Shown: piece by piece, positions 2,863 through 62,493 of the stretch
Position numbering within the stretch: the stretch's first letter is position 1
How the letters are laid out: every line of letters starts with the position of its first letter
Source of the DNA: Candidatus Heimdallarchaeota archaeon
GTDB taxonomy: Archaea > Asgardarchaeota > Heimdallarchaeia > Hodarchaeales > Hodarchaeaceae
Length of the DNA: 64,000 bases
Direction of reading: 5' to 3'
Assembly: GCA_019057635.1 (NCBI GenBank)
Contig: DXJL01000133.1
Span: 1-64,000 of the forward strand
Position numbers and translations under genes: made by a program
The notes under the pieces: model-generated
What the model was told of the DNA's origin: nothing
The model's input: only the letters and a program-made list of their open reading frames with translations
Database searches by the model: none

Positions 2863-5800
2863 ATGAAAAGGCAGAACATGAAGTTGATAAATATGACAAC
2901 TCCAGAAGTTAGTTTTACGCTAAGAAAAAGTGAAACAAAAATCTTAAACACATTAATATCCTTTGGTGGTCAAAACAAACATGATCTTATTCTTATTTCT
3001 GATGTACAAGAAGAAAAAGCTGAGCAAGCAATTTCAGAATTGATAAAAAAAGGATTTATTAGGCTGAACGAAGAAACAGGGCGTATTTCCGCTACTTTAC
3101 CCGTTTCTGCATTAACACGAATGTTCACTGAAAATATGGCTCTCATAGAAAGTATGAAAGAGAACTATAAAGAGGAATTTCATAGCTCAAAAAATTCTGT
3201 AGAAGAAACATTAAACAAGTTTCAGGAAACAGTGAATGACGGTTTCAAAGTTCTAAAAACTCAAAATGAAGAATTAGAGGTATCAATAAAAGAGGCCATA
3301 GAAGAAAAAGAAAAACTTAACCACTCGCAGTTAGACGAGATGGTGGATCAAGTAGTTACTTCAATGAATACAAAAATAACTGAAACTCAAAATTCTGTTC
3401 AGACAAGTATCTCAGAAGGGACATCGAAATTAGATAAACACTGGGGTAGAGCCATTGATGAATTTCAAAACTTACCTGACTCTGGGACCCGTTCTCTCAA
3501 AGAATCTATCACTAAATATGAACAAGAGTTAAATGAGATAATAAAATCCTCAGTTGAAAAAATTAATAGTATCCAAACTCAATTTAATGGTCTACTAGGT
3601 ACAATTGAATCTGAATCCGTTACTAGGATACAAGAATTCTACTCGAACACCGATACTGTTGGTAGTGACCTGAAAGTTAATTTAAATACTGGATTACAAG
3701 AATCTCGCAAACACGAAAAAGAATTCATCAAGGAAGTACGTCAACATGTCAGAACCTCACTCGAAAATGATGTACTAAACGCATTGAAGGTAGTAATTTC
3801 AGATTTATCAAAAGAAATTGATAATGATATAAATGAGGCCCTAAAACTTGTTGTTCAGCAAACTGATAAAGCAATCACTGCAAGTTCAGAACAAATGAAA
3901 ACAGAGTTTACTGAATTCACTGAAGATGCAAAAGAATTAATCCAAGAACAAAAAATCTCATTAAATGTCCTTGAAACAGAAATTTCGGAGATTACAGCAG
4001 AGCAGAAGCTAGAATCAGTAAGAGACTTATTTCTAAGCCAATTGCAAGCCGGTCAAACAACAGAACTTAATCAATTGGAAACAAGCTTCCGGCACACTCA
4101 AAAATCAGTAATCGATCTTGTTGAGTCTTTAAGAAATTCTGCAAAAGCTAAATTAGCCCAACAAGGAGTAGAGTTTGAAAAGCTACTCAATAATTTTTCT
4201 GATTTAATTGACCAATCGGTGAGCCGGAAGGAACTGGATATTACTAGATTACAACAACTATCTCAATCTATTGAACAATTATTAAGAAATTTGCTTGTCT
4301 CAATTCCAATGCGGACAGATCAATTTAGAATTTCCTTGAAAGATTCATTAGAAGGCACTAGTAAAAGTTTACAAGAAGAATATACAGAATCTTCGAGTGG
4401 TTCAGTAAGTAAAATTTACGAAAAACTTGCTGATTCTCAACAAAGAATTGAATCTATGACTAATGAAACCCTGGATGAAAGTAAAAATGAAATTGAGAAA
4501 GTGATTGCCTCATCAGATCAATTTGAATCTGGTATATCTGCTCTTCAAGAAGATTATCTGAGTAAAGTTGAAAATCGATTTGATCAGAGAGCTAAAGTGA
4601 TGAATACAGAGTTAAAAGCAATAACTCGCAATTTCCAACAATTACTTGAGGGAATTGAAACAGGAGTCGGAGGCATTCATTCTCGTTTGACTTCAGAAGG
4701 CGTTACAAATATTTCTGCTGTTGAAACCTCTCTTCAGAGCAAACTGACTCAACTTAGGAGTGAAATAACTACCATATTTTCACAGAGTCAATCTGAGGCG
4801 CAAGAATTTGTTAGTTCGTTAAATGAAAATTTACAAACCCATTTAGAACGCACATTAGACGTAATTAAAGAGGGTTTTAGTCAAGTCAAATCTGAATATA
4901 ATTTAGAGCTCTCAAATCAGTTAGAACAGCTTAATAGCAAAAGCAAGGAACAACAAGACACTTTAATTGAAACAATAGAAGCTTTTTCACAGAAAGCATC
5001 CTTTAGTGGTTTTAAATCGAATCTCGAGAAAACGCTTGAAGAAAATCAAAGTACCCTAAATGAATTTATTGCTGAAAATCGAAGCAATTTGGATGAAGTT
5101 ATTTCTTTACAGAAAGTAAATATTACCAAATATCAAGAAAAAGGACCTACGGATATATTAGGGTTTATTAATCAAATTCAATCCAATGCTACCACTCAAA
5201 ACAAGAATATCAAAGACACACTGGAAGACCTACTTTCCTATCACAACAGTTTTTCAGATTCAACGATGTCTGAGGTAACAACATTAATTCGTCAGGTTCA
5301 TGAGAGTGGAGATAAGCTTAAATCAATTCTTAATGAATCTTTACAGACTATGTTAACCAACCTGAATCGTACAAGCGAAAATATTGATTTATATTATTCT
5401 GATACGCTAACGGAACTAGAAAATCAGCTTGGAGTCGCTTCAGGATTTGTTACCTCTGAAATTGACACTTCCTTCCAATCGATCCGTAGTGAAATTGAGT
5501 CATTGAAGGAGGGTATGGAAAATACAGTAGCAAGGCTTAATACAGATCTCAAAGGAATAGTTTCTGATTCAGACCAAGAATTCAAGAGTAATGTTCCTGA
5601 AATCACAAAACAATTTTCTAGCGCTTTTGATACTTTGGTAAAAGAAAAAACATCCTCTAACTTAGAGTTACAAAATACACTCTCTGATAATATGACAAAT
5701 TTTATGACATCTTATAGTTCTCAAGTGTCTGCTATTAGAACAAAGCTACATGATTTATTAGCTCAATTTAACAAAGCTATTGAGTCGAACCTTGAAAATT

Positions 5801-7077
5801 TAGACGTTATTGTCGAAACCAATATAAGTCAAGCTTTGAAAAGATTCGAATCTATATATCATATCGATTCAAGCAAAGAAGATCCATTTGGTTTGCGAGA
5901 TATTCATTCCAAAGTCATAGTGGCAAATAAACGGTTAAAATCCGTTGTCTCTGATTCAATTCGCACTCAGCTTGAAGACTTTGAAAGTAACATACCTGAT
6001 CTACAAACCTCTTTTGACGCTATTCACACTCAATCTGAGGAAGATTTGACAAAATCTATCGAGGAATTATCAGATATAATTTCAAGTTCTCAAATGACTC
6101 TTACTACCGATCTGCATAATTATCTAAATGAGGAAAGAGAGCAATTGGATTTTTCAGAATTGCGTGATAGCCTGAAGGATGTTTTACAAGGTTTTAATGA
6201 AGACTCAACCCAAAATATTGAACAACTCTCTCTTGATTTTACCGACAGTATTCAACGTGCAATTAATGAGGTTAACAAATCACGGGAAGAAATACAATCC
6301 ATTTTAGCTGATTTGACGGAAGTAATGAAGGAGCGAATTATCCAGTCAACTACACAATTAACCTCTTTGAAATCCGAACTGAGTACAGAAGTGGAAGGGA
6401 TGAGTAGTGAATTTTCAAAAAATTTATCTACAGATCTAGAATCGTACAATAATGATATAGAAAAATTTAATTTAGAAAACAAAGGGAATATGGCCAAGTT
6501 TATCCAATCATTGAATAATGAAATTGAAACTTATCTCTCAGAATTTTTAAACAAAACCAATGAGATTCTAAACGGGATAAAAGATTCCCACTCACAGCAA
6601 GCCGATGTTTTAGAAACTTTAGAGACTGAATTATCTGAAAATGAGCCAATTTCATATTTACGGTTGCTAAAATTATCAACAAATCATGCGATCAATGAAT
6701 ACTTTATGAAGCTAATAGAAAAAGCGTCTAAACAAGTTACATTATATATGTCAGACCCTACTATTCTTTCATCAGCTGATCTCAAATCTATTCCCTCAGA
6801 AAAACGAATTTGGATTTTTACAAACTTTAATTTCAGTAAAAAGGGTAAAAAATGGTTTACTGAGATTGGTAAGCAAGTAAATATAAATTTACGTAAATCT
6901 AAAGGTGCTAGTAATATTACTGGGATATTAGCGGTCAAGGATGAAGATCAAGCCGTTGTCTTACCTGATGAAGTTGGTTTTACCACACTTGATGAGAAAT
7001 TTGTGGCTTACTTATTGAACATATTAAATATGTTAAAGGGTTCATCTCTCAGACCAAGAAAAGGATCTGGTCAATAA
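2863..7077 (+). CDS. Giant coiled-coil protein with N-terminal winged HTH and TrmB-like C-terminal domain
   Basis: 1404 aa single ORF. aa ~10-85 wHTH-like (RKSETKILNTLISFGGQNKHDLILISDVQEEKAEQAISELIKKGFIRLNEETGRISATLPVSALTRMF); aa ~90-1290 E/K/Q/S/N-rich heptad-like helix; last ~110 aa alpha/beta (VTLYMSDPTILSSADLKSIPSEKRIWIFTNFNFSKKGKKWFTEI...NINLRKSKGASNITGILAVKDEDQAVVLPDE). Confidence 0.85.
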   Translation: MKRQNMKLINMTTPEVSFTLRKSETKILNTLISFGGQNKHDLILISDVQEEKAEQAISELIKKGFIRLNEETGRISATLPVSALTRMFTENMALIESMKENYKEEFHSSKNSVEETLNKFQETVNDGFKVLKTQNEELEVSIKEAIEEKEKLNHSQLDEMVDQVVTSMNTKITETQNSVQTSISEGTSKLDKHWGRAIDEFQNLPDSGTRSLKESITKYEQELNEIIKSSVEKINSIQTQFNGLLGTIESESVTRIQEFYSNTDTVGSDLKVNLNTGLQESRKHEKEFIKEVRQHVRTSLENDVLNALKVVISDLSKEIDNDINEALKLVVQQTDKAITASSEQMKTEFTEFTEDAKELIQEQKISLNVLETEISEITAEQKLESVRDLFLSQLQAGQTTELNQLETSFRHTQKSVIDLVESLRNSAKAKLAQQGVEFEKLLNNFSDLIDQSVSRKELDITRLQQLSQSIEQLLRNLLVSIPMRTDQFRISLKDSLEGTSKSLQEEYTESSSGSVSKIYEKLADSQQRIESMTNETLDESKNEIEKVIASSDQFESGISALQEDYLSKVENRFDQRAKVMNTELKAITRNFQQLLEGIETGVGGIHSRLTSEGVTNISAVETSLQSKLTQLRSEITTIFSQSQSEAQEFVSSLNENLQTHLERTLDVIKEGFSQVKSEYNLELSNQLEQLNSKSKEQQDTLIETIEAFSQKASFSGFKSNLEKTLEENQSTLNEFIAENRSNLDEVISLQKVNITKYQEKGPTDILGFINQIQSNATTQNKNIKDTLEDLLSYHNSFSDSTMSEVTTLIRQVHESGDKLKSILNESLQTMLTNLNRTSENIDLYYSDTLTELENQLGVASGFVTSEIDTSFQSIRSEIESLKEGMENTVARLNTDLKGIVSDSDQEFKSNVPEITKQFSSAFDTLVKEKTSSNLELQNTLSDNMTNFMTSYSSQVSAIRTKLHDLLAQFNKAIESNLENLDVIVETNISQALKRFESIYHIDSSKEDPFGLRDIHSKVIVANKRLKSVVSDSIRTQLEDFESNIPDLQTSFDAIHTQSEEDLTKSIEELSDIISSSQMTLTTDLHNYLNEEREQLDFSELRDSLKDVLQGFNEDSTQNIEQLSLDFTDSIQRAINEVNKSREEIQSILADLTEVMKERIIQSTTQLTSLKSELSTEVEGMSSEFSKNLSTDLESYNNDIEKFNLENKGNMAKFIQSLNNEIETYLSEFLNKTNEILNGIKDSHSQQADVLETLETELSENEPISYLRLLKLSTNHAINEYFMKLIEKASKQVTLYMSDPTILSSADLKSIPSEKRIWIFTNFNFSKKGKKWFTEIGKQVNINLRKSKGASNITGILAVKDEDQAVVLPDEVGFTTLDEKFVAYLLNILNMLKGSSLRPRKGSGQ

Positions 7078-13481: not shown

Positions 13482-13958
13482 GTGGAAATTATGACATTTA
13501 GAATCTCTGAGGATGAAAAAAAGGATAATGACACCTTAGAAAAAATCCTTGCTTCATTAAATACTACAGCTCAAGTGAAACCTGAAATCAAAGATTACCT
13601 GGACACATTATCAAACCGTATAGTTGACTTAACTCGTGATTATTATGCAGCGATTCTATATCTCTTCACATCTCCACTATCATTGCATCAACGGTTGATT
13701 CTTATGCAATTGGTTACACTCTACCCAAAAGGAAGTTCAGGAATAGAATTAGCAAGAAGTTTAGGAATATCAGAGAAAAGTAAATCAATATATAGGGATT
13801 TAAAGTATTTGCGAACTCAACATTTAATTTCCACTGAAGACATTCATCCACGATTAAAATTAGTTTATGCTAATTCTGAAAATCGCTTTATGAATCGACT
13901 AATCGAACTAGTTCAGATACATGGACGTGAATTGAAAAATATTATTCAAGAAACATAA
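13482..13958 (+). CDS. Winged-helix transcriptional regulator
   Basis: HQRLILMQLVTLYPKGSSGIELARSLGISEKSKSIYRDLKYLRTQHLIS; ArsR/MarR-like wHTH. Confidence 0.72.
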   Translation: MEIMTFRISEDEKKDNDTLEKILASLNTTAQVKPEIKDYLDTLSNRIVDLTRDYYAAILYLFTSPLSLHQRLILMQLVTLYPKGSSGIELARSLGISEKSKSIYRDLKYLRTQHLISTEDIHPRLKLVYANSENRFMNRLIELVQIHGRELKNIIQET

Positions 13959-13978: not shown

Positions 13979-14617
13979 ATGTTACGAGGTCCAATTACTA
14001 CTATACGACTTGTTCAGATATCATATGTCATCTTGGTCTCAGTATGTATTACTGGGTCAATACTCTTCTTGTCAAATAGTATAATGACCCCAACATCAAC
14101 AGATACTGGGCCAGGACCACAATTATTTGAAAATATATCTTTTGACACGGCTGTAGCGCGTATAAGTGATCCTTTGTCGTTTTTCCCTAATATTTTATGG
14201 GCTTTTATTCCATTAACTATAGCTATTTTCATAATAGCCTTCTACCTCCCTACAAGGTCAAGCCTTGGCCTATCTAAATCCCACTTCCAAAAAAAATCAC
14301 AATTAAACCGTTTTAATCTCCCTGTACGAGGATATACAATCAATCTTGACACGGGTTATATTAGAATCACACGAAAGCTATCTTCATTGAGTGGTTTATT
14401 ACTTCGAGAGATGAATTTTACAGTTAATCTTCCGTTGGACTACGCTGATAAGAAACGTATATTTGATTTCCTTGTAGGTGAGAAAGTGAATTATACAAAA
14501 ACACATGTTCTTCTACAAAAAACCGTGAAAATTCGGAATATTCCGCTTCTAATTGTTAGGACGAAGGCAATAATTGCTACTGTTGATACTACAATTGATC
14601 CCCCCTCTCCAAAGTAA
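13979..14617 (+). CDS. Two-TM membrane protein, unknown
   Basis: TM ISYVILVSVCITGSILFLSN and ILWAFIPLTIAIFIIAFYL, then a beta-rich soluble C-terminus. Confidence 0.65.
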   Translation: MLRGPITTIRLVQISYVILVSVCITGSILFLSNSIMTPTSTDTGPGPQLFENISFDTAVARISDPLSFFPNILWAFIPLTIAIFIIAFYLPTRSSLGLSKSHFQKKSQLNRFNLPVRGYTINLDTGYIRITRKLSSLSGLLLREMNFTVNLPLDYADKKRIFDFLVGEKVNYTKTHVLLQKTVKIRNIPLLIVRTKAIIATVDTTIDPPSPK

Positions 14618-14703: not shown

Positions 14704-15444
14704 TTGACACGACTTGTAGCATATTCAGTGACTTCTGACGGCCATTGGGATCCAGTGGCGTTTTCTCTTAAAGATCTTAAAGCTAAAGAAGTTTTCATCC
14801 TTGTTGATGACGAAAAAAGGAAAATTTGGATCTGGATAGGAAGAGATGCCACAGTTAAAACTCGCTTTATTTCATCCACTGCTGCGACTGAGATTCGTAG
14901 ATTGTATGGCTTTACTTTTCGTGTACAAACGATTGATCAAGACGAAGAATCACGTGAATTTTCAGAATGTATAGAATCGATCCCAAAAAGAGGTCTGGTA
15001 CCAGAATTAGCCGAAGGACAAAAGGAGAAAAAAGCAACTAAAAACACTCGATCCTCTTCCGCCGCAAAAAAAGTTACTCCAAGAACTAAAGCGAGTAAAT
15101 CGACAATAAAAAAAGCCAGTGCCACAAAAACTACACGTAAAACTCCTGTGCGAAAAACTACACCAAGAAAAACAGCGACCAAAACCACACGTAAACCCAC
15201 AAAAGCAAAAACCCAAAAAACTACACCTAAACCTAAATCACGTAGTTCAAAAGAGGTTCTGTCATTAAACAGTTATTTACCACAAGATACAAGCATTATT
15301 ACCACCCCACCTTGTCCTGAATGTGGCGTTGGAAATTTACTGCCTTATTCTGAAAATATTGTCCAGGAAGGAAGAGAAGATTTGATACTACCCTTTGCTA
15401 AGTGGGTTTGTTCAAAATGTGAGTACTCACCTACTCACCAATAA
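14704..15444 (+). CDS. Gelsolin-like domain, K/T/R-rich linker, C-terminal zinc ribbon
   Basis: LKDLKAKEVFILVDDEKRKIWIWIGRDATVKTRFISSTAATEIRRLYGFTFRVQTIDQDEES (gelsolin-type); ~75 aa H1-like basic tract; CPECGVGN...WVCSKCEYSP with two CxxC knuckles. TTG start. Confidence 0.8.
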   Translation: MTRLVAYSVTSDGHWDPVAFSLKDLKAKEVFILVDDEKRKIWIWIGRDATVKTRFISSTAATEIRRLYGFTFRVQTIDQDEESREFSECIESIPKRGLVPELAEGQKEKKATKNTRSSSAAKKVTPRTKASKSTIKKASATKTTRKTPVRKTTPRKTATKTTRKPTKAKTQKTTPKPKSRSSKEVLSLNSYLPQDTSIITTPPCPECGVGNLLPYSENIVQEGREDLILPFAKWVCSKCEYSPTHQ

Positions 15445-44586: not shown

Positions 44587-45426
44587 GTGAGTATATTGAA
44601 ATTTCGAGTAGCATTAGCCCAGACTCATTCACATCAAGCAGATCCCACATCCAATTTACAGATCATTTCTGAAATTTGTGAAAAGATAGATTTTGACGAA
44701 GAGATACCTACTATTGTAGTTTTTCCTGAATTATCAGTAACAGGCTATTTGATGCATGATGATGTATATCAACTGGCAGAACCAATTCCGTCTGGGCCGT
44801 TTAGTCAGGAATTAGCTCGTATATCACAAAAAAATAGTTGTTATTTAATTGCAGGTATGCCAGAGTCCTCTATCCCGGGATTATTATACAACACTGCAGT
44901 AATGTTTGGTCCAGAGGGTTTTATTGGAAAAAGTCGCAAAATATTTCTACCTAATCATTCTGTCTTTAACGAAAGACGATATTTCAGAAGTTCTCCGACA
45001 ATAAACGTAATGGACACTCCGATGGGAAAGATCGGAATGCAAATTTGTTATGATATCTTTAGTCCAGAAATTACACGTGCTCATGCTCTCTTGGGAGCGC
45101 ACACGAGCATTTGTATCTCTGCATCTCCAGGTGTACGAAGACAATATTTTGAAACATTTATCCCTGCAAGAGCAATGGAGAATACTATTAATTTTGTTTA
45201 TGTAAACCAATCTGGAATTCAAGACGATTTGATATTCTGGGGAGGATCAGAGGTTCGTTCCGCTACAGGAAAACAAATCGCAAAACTTGAATATAATAAG
45301 CCTGATTTTGAGGTTTGTACACTATCAACAGATAGCTCACAGAGTGCCAAAAATTTTGTACCTACCTTGAAGGATTTACCCTCTTGGATATTTAAAACGA
45401 TAGAAGAGAGTTACTATGACATCTAA
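44587..45426 (+). CDS. Stand-alone glutaminase subunit of glutamine-dependent NAD+ synthetase (nitrilase fold)
   Basis: E/K/C triad VFPELSVTGY, SRKIFLPNHSVFNERRYF, MQICYDIFSPE; KxxLPNxxVFxExRYF is characteristic of the NadE glutaminase domain. Confidence 0.85.
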   Translation: MSILKFRVALAQTHSHQADPTSNLQIISEICEKIDFDEEIPTIVVFPELSVTGYLMHDDVYQLAEPIPSGPFSQELARISQKNSCYLIAGMPESSIPGLLYNTAVMFGPEGFIGKSRKIFLPNHSVFNERRYFRSSPTINVMDTPMGKIGMQICYDIFSPEITRAHALLGAHTSICISASPGVRRQYFETFIPARAMENTINFVYVNQSGIQDDLIFWGGSEVRSATGKQIAKLEYNKPDFEVCTLSTDSSQSAKNFVPTLKDLPSWIFKTIEESYYDI

Positions 45427-46273
45427 AACAAGAATTCGCAGTATACCCTCTCTTGATGTTACTGTGACTAGCAAGCTTATTCAAGATTTCATAAAGATAC
45501 GAGTGACTGAAGCTGGAGCAGAAGGAGTGGTAATTGGATTAAGTGGAGGAATAGATTCGGCAGTAGTTGTTACTCTTGCTGCTAAGATCTTAGGGTCAAA
45601 AAATGTCATTCCAATCTTTCTACAGAATATTAATTCTTCTGAAGCTGATATTACAGATATTAAAGCCCTGTGTAAAAAACTAAAGCTTGACCTAATCCAA
45701 TATAACATTCAAGGAGTTATCGACCAATTTGCAGAAAGCATTAGCGAAACAGAAGATTCTTCAGAATTAGCATGGATGAATATTAAGCCTAGGCTTTTAC
45801 AAACATACCTTTATTTTCATGCTAATAAGAATAATTATTTAGTCTGTGGAGCTGGTAATAAAAGCGAGATAATGATTGGATATTTTACTAAGTATGGTGA
45901 TGGTGGCGTTGATATCCTCCCCATTGGAGATGTTTACAAAACTCATGTTTATCAACTTGCAGAGTATCTAAAACTACCTAAATCAATTCTAAAAAAGGCC
46001 CCGAGTGCAGGATTAACTAAAGGGCAAACAGATGAAGCTGAAATCGGTATGAGCTATACAGAACTTGATTCAGTCTTATATGGCCTAGAAATATTTCAAA
46101 CTGATGAACAAATTACCGAACTTACCCAGATTCCACCTTCAACGATTAAAAAAGTCAGATCTATGATTTATAAAAGTGAACATAAACGACGAGGCCCCAT
46201 TTTATTCAAATTGGGGGTAAGAACGCCCAGTATGGATTGGCGTATACCTTTAATAAAACCCAAACATATCTGA
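45416..46273 (+). CDS. nadE: NAD+ synthase
   Basis: VVIGLSGGIDSAVVVTLA, GAGNKSEIMIGYFTKYGDGGVDILPIGDVYKTHV, KKAPSAGLTKGQTDEAEIGMSYTELD; overlaps the glutaminase gene by 11 bp. Confidence 0.95.
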   Translation: MTSKTRIRSIPSLDVTVTSKLIQDFIKIRVTEAGAEGVVIGLSGGIDSAVVVTLAAKILGSKNVIPIFLQNINSSEADITDIKALCKKLKLDLIQYNIQGVIDQFAESISETEDSSELAWMNIKPRLLQTYLYFHANKNNYLVCGAGNKSEIMIGYFTKYGDGGVDILPIGDVYKTHVYQLAEYLKLPKSILKKAPSAGLTKGQTDEAEIGMSYTELDSVLYGLEIFQTDEQITELTQIPPSTIKKVRSMIYKSEHKRRGPILFKLGVRTPSMDWRIPLIKPKHI

Positions 46274-47078: not shown

Positions 47079-48854
47079 TCATGGTTCAATCTTTGCTCGA
47101 ATTCTCATTAAGCCTGTACCAATATTCTTCTGTTTTTGAATGGTAAATGTACCAATTTCTTTGGTGTTTTTTACATGAGGACCTGTGCAAATCTCTTTGG
47201 AAAAATTTCCAACTGAATATACAGAAACTTTGGTTTGGTATTTATCCTCAAAGAATCCTAGTGCCCCACTTGCCTTTGCTTCTTTAGGGGTAAGGATTTC
47301 GCTTGTAACTGCTAGTCCCTCTTTGATCTTTTTGTTCACAAGTTGTTCTACTTTCTCGATTTCTGATGGTGAAAGTTTTTCAGAATGAGTGAAATCGAAT
47401 CTTGTTCTTTCTGGGGTAATGTTACTACCTTTTTGTTCAACATGATTCCCTAACACATCTCTTAATGCTTGTTGCAACAGATGAGTTGCTGTATGCAGTC
47501 GAGTTGTTTTTTCTGTATGATCAGAAAGGCCACTTTTGAAGGTCCCTGATGTTGCTTTCCGTGATAGATCTTTATGATGGGCAAATTCTTCTTGAAATGC
47601 TTGTGTGTCAATTGTAATATTCTTTTCTTTAGCGATTTCCAACGTCATTTCTAGTGGGAAACCGAAAGATGTGAATAGAAGAAATGCATCTTGACCTGTT
47701 AATGTCCCTGTTTCATCTAATATTTTACCCAAACGTTTAAGTCCACGTTTTAATGTGGTAGAAAACTTATTTTCTTCTTGGGTTAAATTATTCATAATAA
47801 AATTCTTATTTCTTTCTAGTTCGAGATAGATATCTGAATATAAACTCATGACAATTTCTGCCAGTGTAGGGAGAAAGCGTTGTTTAATATTCAACAGATT
47901 CCCTTGACGAATAATCCCTCGAATAAACCTTCGAAGGACGTAACCCTGCCCTAAATTCGAGGGGGAGACATTTTTGTCATCTCCTAATATAAAGGTAGCA
48001 GATCTTATGTGATCTGCAATAATGTTGATTGATTTACGTTGTTCTTCAGTAGGTTCAGTCATAATTTTTGCAAATCGTTTTATACGATCATTAATGGGTT
48101 GAATTGTATCTATTTCATGAATAGTTGTTGCACCATTAAGTACAGCAATTGTACGTTCAATACCCATTCCTGTATCTACATTATGTTGAGCTAATTTTCC
48201 AAACGAACCATCTGCTAACTTATTATAGCTCATAAAAACATCATTCCAGATTTCAAAGTATTTTCCACAATGACAGCCAGGACGACATGTCTTTGAGCAG
48301 GGGTTTTTTCCCGTATCGAAAAACATCTCCGTGTCAGGACCACAAGGTCCTGTAGAACCCGCTGGACCCCACCAGTTATCCTCACGAGGGAGAAAATAGA
48401 TTCGATCATCGGGAATACCCATTTTACGCCATATTGCGGCGGATTCCTCATCTCTCGGTGCATCTTTATCCCCCTCGAACACTGTAACTGATAATCGATC
48501 AGGATCTATACCTAACCAATCAGGTGAAGTTAAGAATTCCCAACTCATTGAAATGGCTTCTTCTTTGAAATAATCACCTAATGACCAATTTCCTAACATT
48601 TCAAAGAATGTAAGATGCGTAGGATCACCTACTTCATCAATATCTCGAGTACGGATACATTTCTGGCTATTAGTAATGCGTTTACCTGAAGGATGAGGTT
48701 CTCCAGTAAAATAAACCTGTAATGGATGCATCCCTGCGGTTGTAAAAAGGACAGTTGGATCATTTTCTGGAAAAATAGATGCTGAAGGAATTATTACATG
48801 ATTTCTTTCCTTGAAAAATTGTAAATACTTTTCCCTTAAGGTTTTCGAATCCAT
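47079..48854 (-). CDS. alaS: Alanyl-tRNA synthetase, short form lacking C-Ala domain
   Basis: 591 aa; FTTAGMHPLQVYFTGEPHPSGKRITNSQKCIRTRDIDEVGDPTHLTFFEMLGNWSLGDYFKEEAI, GPCGPDTEMFFD; editing motifs HTATHLL and CTGPHVKNT; ends right after the SAD domain. Confidence 0.95.
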   Translation of the reverse strand: MDSKTLREKYLQFFKERNHVIIPSASIFPENDPTVLFTTAGMHPLQVYFTGEPHPSGKRITNSQKCIRTRDIDEVGDPTHLTFFEMLGNWSLGDYFKEEAISMSWEFLTSPDWLGIDPDRLSVTVFEGDKDAPRDEESAAIWRKMGIPDDRIYFLPREDNWWGPAGSTGPCGPDTEMFFDTGKNPCSKTCRPGCHCGKYFEIWNDVFMSYNKLADGSFGKLAQHNVDTGMGIERTIAVLNGATTIHEIDTIQPINDRIKRFAKIMTEPTEEQRKSINIIADHIRSATFILGDDKNVSPSNLGQGYVLRRFIRGIIRQGNLLNIKQRFLPTLAEIVMSLYSDIYLELERNKNFIMNNLTQEENKFSTTLKRGLKRLGKILDETGTLTGQDAFLLFTSFGFPLEMTLEIAKEKNITIDTQAFQEEFAHHKDLSRKATSGTFKSGLSDHTEKTTRLHTATHLLQQALRDVLGNHVEQKGSNITPERTRFDFTHSEKLSPSEIEKVEQLVNKKIKEGLAVTSEILTPKEAKASGALGFFEDKYQTKVSVYSVGNFSKEICTGPHVKNTKEIGTFTIQKQKNIGTGLMRIRAKIEP

Positions 48855-61566: not shown

Positions 61567-62493
61567 TTGGAAAATCTAGATATTAGTGATCAAGTTAGTA
61601 ATATTGTCGAAAAAATTAAAAATTTCATTGAAACTTCAAAAGAGGAGCGTGGAGTAAGCGGTGTCGTAATATTATTCTCAGGATTCATTGATTCGACAAT
61701 TATTGCTAAACTCGCAATGGACACACTTGGAAAGGAAAAAGTTAGACTTTTCAATAGATCTGAAAGTAAATTCGATAAACACACTGAAATGTTCAAGAAT
61801 TCTATTGATTATCTAGGAATTTCTGAGTCTCAAATTGTTCATTGTGATATCGCTCCTATTGTAAAGCAGTTTAATTCTGATGAACTAATTCCAGGACGAT
61901 CTCGAGAGGTTCCTTTGCTCTATCAACCTTTAAGCTATTCTTTACTTAAATCAACATTGATCAGAGAAATTGAAGGTAATACATATGGTATGGTCGGAAA
62001 AGCAGAATCAGAACGTGAGCGATTACTCCATAAGATCATTGCACATAATAAACTACGTTCTCGAATTCAAATGGCGGTAGCTTATCTAACTGCAGAAACA
62101 GAAAACGCGTTTCTTCTAGGAACGATCAATAAAACTGAATTATTGACTGGTCTCTTTACAAAATGGGGACATGGACACTGTGCTGATATCATGCCTCTTG
62201 GTAATCTGTACCGCACCCAAATATTACATCTTGCAGACTATTTAGATATCCCCACCGATATAGCAAATAAGGCGAAAGCTGACTTGTTACCTGGTATAAA
62301 AAATAAATATCAATATTTTTTCGAGCTTACCGCATTAGATGTTGATAGGATTCTAGTTCGATTGGAACATGGAATTTCAACAGAGGAGACGAGCAAACAA
62401 ACCGACATTGATCTCGATTTGATAGAAAAAGTTAATCATTACTTCGCTTCTTCAGTATATACACGTAGTGCTCCTCTTATCCCTAAAATTTAG
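61567..62493 (+). CDS. NadE-like paralogue with degenerate PP-loop
   Basis: LLGTINKTELLTGLFTKWGHGHCADIMPLGNLYRTQILHLADYL matches NadE, but SGGIDSA is SGFIDST and PSAGLTKGQTDEAEIG is replaced by KADLLPGIKNKYQYF. Confidence 0.85.
   Translation: MENLDISDQVSNIVEKIKNFIETSKEERGVSGVVILFSGFIDSTIIAKLAMDTLGKEKVRLFNRSESKFDKHTEMFKNSIDYLGISESQIVHCDIAPIVKQFNSDELIPGRSREVPLLYQPLSYSLLKSTLIREIEGNTYGMVGKAESERERLLHKIIAHNKLRSRIQMAVAYLTAETENAFLLGTINKTELLTGLFTKWGHGHCADIMPLGNLYRTQILHLADYLDIPTDIANKAKADLLPGIKNKYQYFFELTALDVDRILVRLEHGISTEETSKQTDIDLDLIEKVNHYFASSVYTRSAPLIPKI

Follow-up and report, generated by a model that had tools for sequence, protein, structure and literature searches.

A three-part gelsolin-domain protein with a basic linker and a putative zinc ribbon in a genus of Heimdallarchaeia

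The gene at positions 14704 to 15444 (forward strand) of the window analysed here, a stretch of 64,000 nucleotides from a Candidatus Heimdallarchaeota genome, encodes a protein of 246 amino acids in which a single N-terminal gelsolin domain is followed by a basic, disordered linker and a C-terminal zinc ribbon. This three-part protein is a lineage-specific variant of the known Asgard gelsolin family. The TTG codon at 14704 is the first possible start, because a TAA stop codon lies immediately 5' of it, and this start is conserved in all five close sequences that were compared. The closest named relative, from Candidatus Heimdallarchaeota B3_Heim, is 92% identical. The full architecture was seen in 10 of the 12 genomes of this Hodarchaeales-type genus; the count stops short of 12 because, in the other two (G005 and G009), the ribbon is present but the sequence before it is masked with N. 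When the 216 other genomes of the phylum were searched with the ribbon profile, the three-part architecture was absent from the loci read, and a literature search on archaeal gelsolin and zinc ribbon, with those words, found no paper. In well-separated pairs, dN/dS indicates purifying selection on all three regions, with lower values for the gelsolin domain (0.05–0.15) and the ribbon (0.10–0.20) than for the linker (0.13–0.44); the closest pair, G000–G001, is uninformative because its sequences are too alike. Linker and ribbon, the loss of which from orthologues the first-pass annotation had named as grounds for giving up its reading, are both kept.

The same annotation had recognized a gelsolin-type domain at the N-terminus and had proposed profile search and structure prediction as checks, and both bear it out. 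PF00626 is recovered just above its cut-off of 21 bits in the query (21.5 bits) and more clearly in the 92%-identical orthologue (28.3 bits). A profile built from ten orthologues retrieved villin (2e-9) and the Heim 2DGel (1e-8) from the PDB, with villin, Heim, Thor and Loki gelsolins spanning 2e-9 to 3e-7. In the AlphaFold model, which was built on four sequences, the gelsolin domain (amino acids 1–100, positions 14704 to 15003, forward strand) shows strands and helices from residue 4 to residue 91 with pLDDT values of about 70–80, disorder is predicted for the linker, and the values in the ribbon are 37–75. Foldseek matched the model to gelsolins with a probability of 1.00, the best fold match being the thorarchaeal ProGel (7c2f) with a TM score of 0.87 by ProGel length. 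Sec23 was also among the matches, so that the gelsolin fold alone is no proof of actin binding. Both PF00626 and the model find one gelsolin domain only, and the protein is thus no two-domain gelsolin (2DGel).

The alignment of gelsolin domains was particularly informative at residues 29, 53 and 65, which we take to be the type II and type I calcium-ligand sites by the established numbering of gelsolin domain 1. It contained 23 rows of 2DGel domains and 68 single-domain rows, of which 57 came from other proteins and 11 were target rows representing 10 distinct sequences (G008 was entered twice). Residue 53 is Glu in all 23 2DGel rows, Thr or Ser in every target and Glu in none of the 68 single-domain rows. 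Residue 65 is Asp in 23 of 23 2DGel domains and Arg in all targets, in 46 of 47 longer and in 6 of 8 short single-domain forms, and at residue 29 Asp occupies all 19 2DGel rows that have a letter there, with Glu, Ser, Gln, Val or Ala in the targets. The query itself has E29, T53 and R65 where 2DGels have D, E and D, and its gelsolin domain, as far as alignment can tell, is without the usual calcium-binding residues. Conservation of these ligand residues in each of the two domains has been reported for the Thor, Heim and Loki 2DGels (PMC9433394).

A tree calculated from 91 domain rows leads to the same grouping. The split between 2DGels and single-domain sequences received support of 97/100, and the targets form one clade (99/92) that lies inside the single-domain sequences, together with other Asgard single-domain gelsolins; the tree rests on 97 columns, many of its inner forks are poorly supported, and it covers neither ProGel nor the named 1DGelX sequences. 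Judged by sequence, the gelsolin part is a member of a single-domain family that occurs across Asgard archaea and stands apart from the calcium-controlled 2DGels. The target profile matched 204 of 226 genomes at E ≤ 1e-8, some of which may be matches to 2DGel domains. Single-domain gelsolins of about 290–340 amino acids with conserved C-terminal parts occur throughout the phylum (e.g., L142 to L160, and L039 and L040 in the genome under study); a Pfam scan of L039 and L040 left these conserved parts unrecognized. None of the longer forms that were read carries a ribbon of the target type, and other C-terminal parts stand in its place. A gelsolin-like N-terminal domain was also found on large P-loop ATPase-like proteins encoded at L016:1483-3585 (G013) and L052:722-3070 (G012), in two genomes of the same taxonomic order; the ATPase_2 match in L052 is below its cut-off.

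Gelsolin-like proteins elsewhere control actin. The explanation that we prefer, tentatively and at somewhat less than an even chance, is that the protein is a gelsolin adaptor which acts independently of calcium, is tethered electrostatically and docks through its ribbon. The gelsolin domain would contact actin free of calcium control, the arm would use its positive charge to hold the protein to a polyanion, in the simplest case F-actin or the anionic membrane, and the ribbon might dock a specific protein partner, a guess made by elimination. Overall, the protein would then serve actin as an adaptor or a targeting factor that needs no calcium, and not as a severing protein switched by calcium. 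The genome encodes one strong actin (PF00022, 443 bits) and a separate 2DGel of 411 amino acids. Alternatively, the gelsolin fold could serve as a protein–protein module unrelated to actin, as in Sec23/Sec24, with arm and ribbon at the service of another complex. The family lacks the calcium ligands, including those of the type I site that joins gelsolin and actin in 2DGels, and the fusion of the same domain to ATPase-like proteins (L016 and L052) suggests that some members have a role unrelated to actin. However, the nearest solved fold relative, ProGel, was crystallized with actin and is likewise devoid of two acidic helix positions, and the strong actin gene in the same genome also speaks for an actin partner; we regard a function outside the actin system as unlikely, yet worth keeping in sight.

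The linker (amino acids 101–200, positions 15004 to 15303, forward strand) carries a net charge of +24, and K, T, R, S, P and A account for 78% of its residues. The first-pass annotation had described an H1-like tract of about 75 amino acids made of these residues. The basic stretch is real: the best 75-residue stretch of the protein has a net charge of +28, and the next best among the open frames of at least 100 codons in the window reaches +16 and runs antisense to another gene. The disordered linker as a whole is, however, nearer to 100 residues. In the closest five species the likeness to histone H1 tails is strong, with net charges of +22 to +25, 74–80% K/T/R/S/P/A and two to four S/T-P-K/R motifs. 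Linker charge declines to +12 to +17 in G003, G004 and G006 and is lowest in G007 (+4) and G008 (+7), so that an H1-like tail is kept in the closest five species only and not across the orthologues. Taken per residue, the charge is positive in all ten orthologues (+0.07 to +0.25). Among the longer single-domain proteins, 46 linkers with roughly drawn boundaries have a median of -0.01 and lie between -0.11 and +0.11. We conclude that positive charge characterizes the family, and H1-like composition one branch of it.

These data bear on two further explanations. The arm could be a mere spacer, a low-complexity linker that became basic by drift and binds nothing. In line with this, the linkers of distant orthologues are 10–34% identical to that of the query, linker length ranges from 53 to 102 amino acids, and dN/dS is highest in this region; the ten orthologues moreover share ancestry and are not ten independent observations of positive charge. 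On the other hand, that charge is positive in ten of ten cases, while related linkers centre on zero and those of Loki 2DGels are acidic, and we consider a spacer without binding function rather improbable. The second explanation is that of a bridge between actin and nucleic acid or nucleoprotein, with an H1-like arm that binds DNA or RNA and a gelsolin domain that provides the link to actin. Composition, charge and S/T-P-K/R motifs in the closest five species, all of them as in H1 tails, are consistent with such a bridge, but the arms of G007 and G008 have lost the H1-like composition, and the ribbon is near-neutral and without a match to a nucleic-acid-binding family above the cut-off in the query. 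An action on nucleic acid, as originally proposed, is possible; what argues for it is charge, in a composition confined to the closest five species. No result gives nucleic acid an advantage over membrane or F-actin as the binding target, and a dedicated bridge to nucleic acid appears distinctly doubtful to us. A broader wording, in which the adaptor bridges actin to a polyanionic structure, be it nucleoid or membrane, via the basic arm and the ribbon docks a specific partner, would likewise have little probability. We know of no other organism in which a gelsolin fold is used in this manner.

The docking role assigned to the ribbon in the preferred adaptor reading concerns the strictest part of the protein outside the gelsolin domain. 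The ribbon (amino acids 201–246, positions 15304 to 15441, forward strand) follows the pattern CPxCxxGxLLPYS...LPFAKWxCSxCxYSP. The two CxxC pairs that had been noted at the outset stand firm, as C204, C207, C236 and C239 are present in every one of the 11 orthologous ribbons, and the full alignment shows no variation at these cysteines or at G210, L212, P214, S216, W234 and P243. From its cysteines, the ribbon putatively binds zinc. The ribbon profile matched 12 of 12 genomes of the genus, once each at E ≤ 0.01; in the 216 other genomes of the phylum it gave weak matches only, and there was no gelsolin domain at the loci read. Ribbon charge is near-neutral (-3 to +4). No Pfam family scored above its cut-off with the query ribbon, and Pfam and PDB comparisons of the ribbon returned generic cysteine-knuckle matches only. 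DUF3716 (cut-off 22 bits) was reached in two orthologous ribbons (24.9 and 22.7 bits), and we read this, too, as a generic cysteine-knuckle match.

Immediately upstream lie two genes of the same orientation. One (13979..14617, forward strand) encodes a membrane protein with a pair of long hydrophobic helices and a small alpha/beta portion, which has no Pfam match, keeps its synteny in the genus and yields a model of low confidence (pLDDT 56). The other (13482..13958, forward strand) encodes 158 amino acids with a weak, sub-threshold helix-turn-helix match and is strongly conserved among the genomes of the genus. Since synteny in the genus extends over the whole region, gene order singles out no partner; we considered reading a function from the neighbours and rejected it for this reason. 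Elsewhere in the window, the open reading frame at 2863-7077 (forward strand) encodes 1404 amino acids, with an N-terminal part that looks helix-turn-helix-like by eye followed by long helical repeats; its Pfam Apolipoprotein match (90.1 bits at a cut-off of 90) is probably a generic helical one. An alanyl-tRNA synthetase-like protein of 591 amino acids (47079-48854, reverse strand) contains the tRNA-synt_2c and SAD domains and nothing further, and two NAD-synthetase-like reading frames, judged by eye from their translations, are located at 45416-46273 and 61567-62493 (forward strand).

Heimdallarchaeia, with Hodarchaeales among them, are positioned as the closest relatives of eukaryotes (PMC10307638). 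The general picture is that a widespread Asgard class of single-gelsolin proteins exists besides the calcium-controlled 2DGels, that the members read are without the calcium-ligand residues, and that Asgard lineages attach differing C-terminal modules to the single domain. This raises the question whether calcium control is restricted to the 2DGel branch. The three-part protein would itself matter if its arm or its ribbon revealed what actin is tethered to.

How does the protein compare with known systems? The Thorarchaeal ProGel (7c2f) resembles it in having a single gelsolin domain and, by profile alignment, in missing two acidic helix positions, but differs in that it has neither linker nor ribbon and carries Ser at position 65 where the target has Arg. 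The Heim2DGel of LC_3 (7whf) likewise has a gelsolin fold to which a charged tail (pI 9.4) is attached; unlike the target, it has two domains, is calcium-bound, has a tail predicted to be helical, and no ribbon has been described for it. 1DGelX is a named class of Asgard gelsolin-like proteins (PMC9433394); the name suggests one gelsolin domain with an extra part, and by name the target would fit this heading. The closest precedents are Loki2DGel and MKD1-2DGel, which like the target are Asgard gelsolins that continue into a long linker and end in a (CxxC)2 zinc domain. In Loki2DGel, an acidic linker joins two gelsolin domains to a zinc domain that could not be found consistently beyond Loki (PMC9433394), and calcium sites are occupied in the structure of the protein (PDB 7whg). 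The claim that the target differs from simple one- or two-gelsolin-domain proteins is true of the protein itself, but Loki2DGel and MKD1-2DGel already join gelsolin, linker and zinc domain, and the plan itself is therefore not new to Asgard archaea. Linkers of 18 Loki2DGel relatives with an intact zinc end are acidic (net charge -5 to -19), in contrast to the basic linker of the target, and the Loki zinc signature GRRKCPEC...ILDYPRxYGKKYxCGxCGxxWREK differs from the target ribbon. In hhalign, target ribbon and Loki zinc domain matched with 69% probability, compared with 91–95% for the target ribbon and three other Asgard ribbons from the ribbon search; the Loki domain is thus no closer than these, and we did not adopt a common origin of the two. 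What sets the target apart from Loki2DGel is the combination of one gelsolin domain, the lack of calcium ligands and a linker that is basic instead of acidic.
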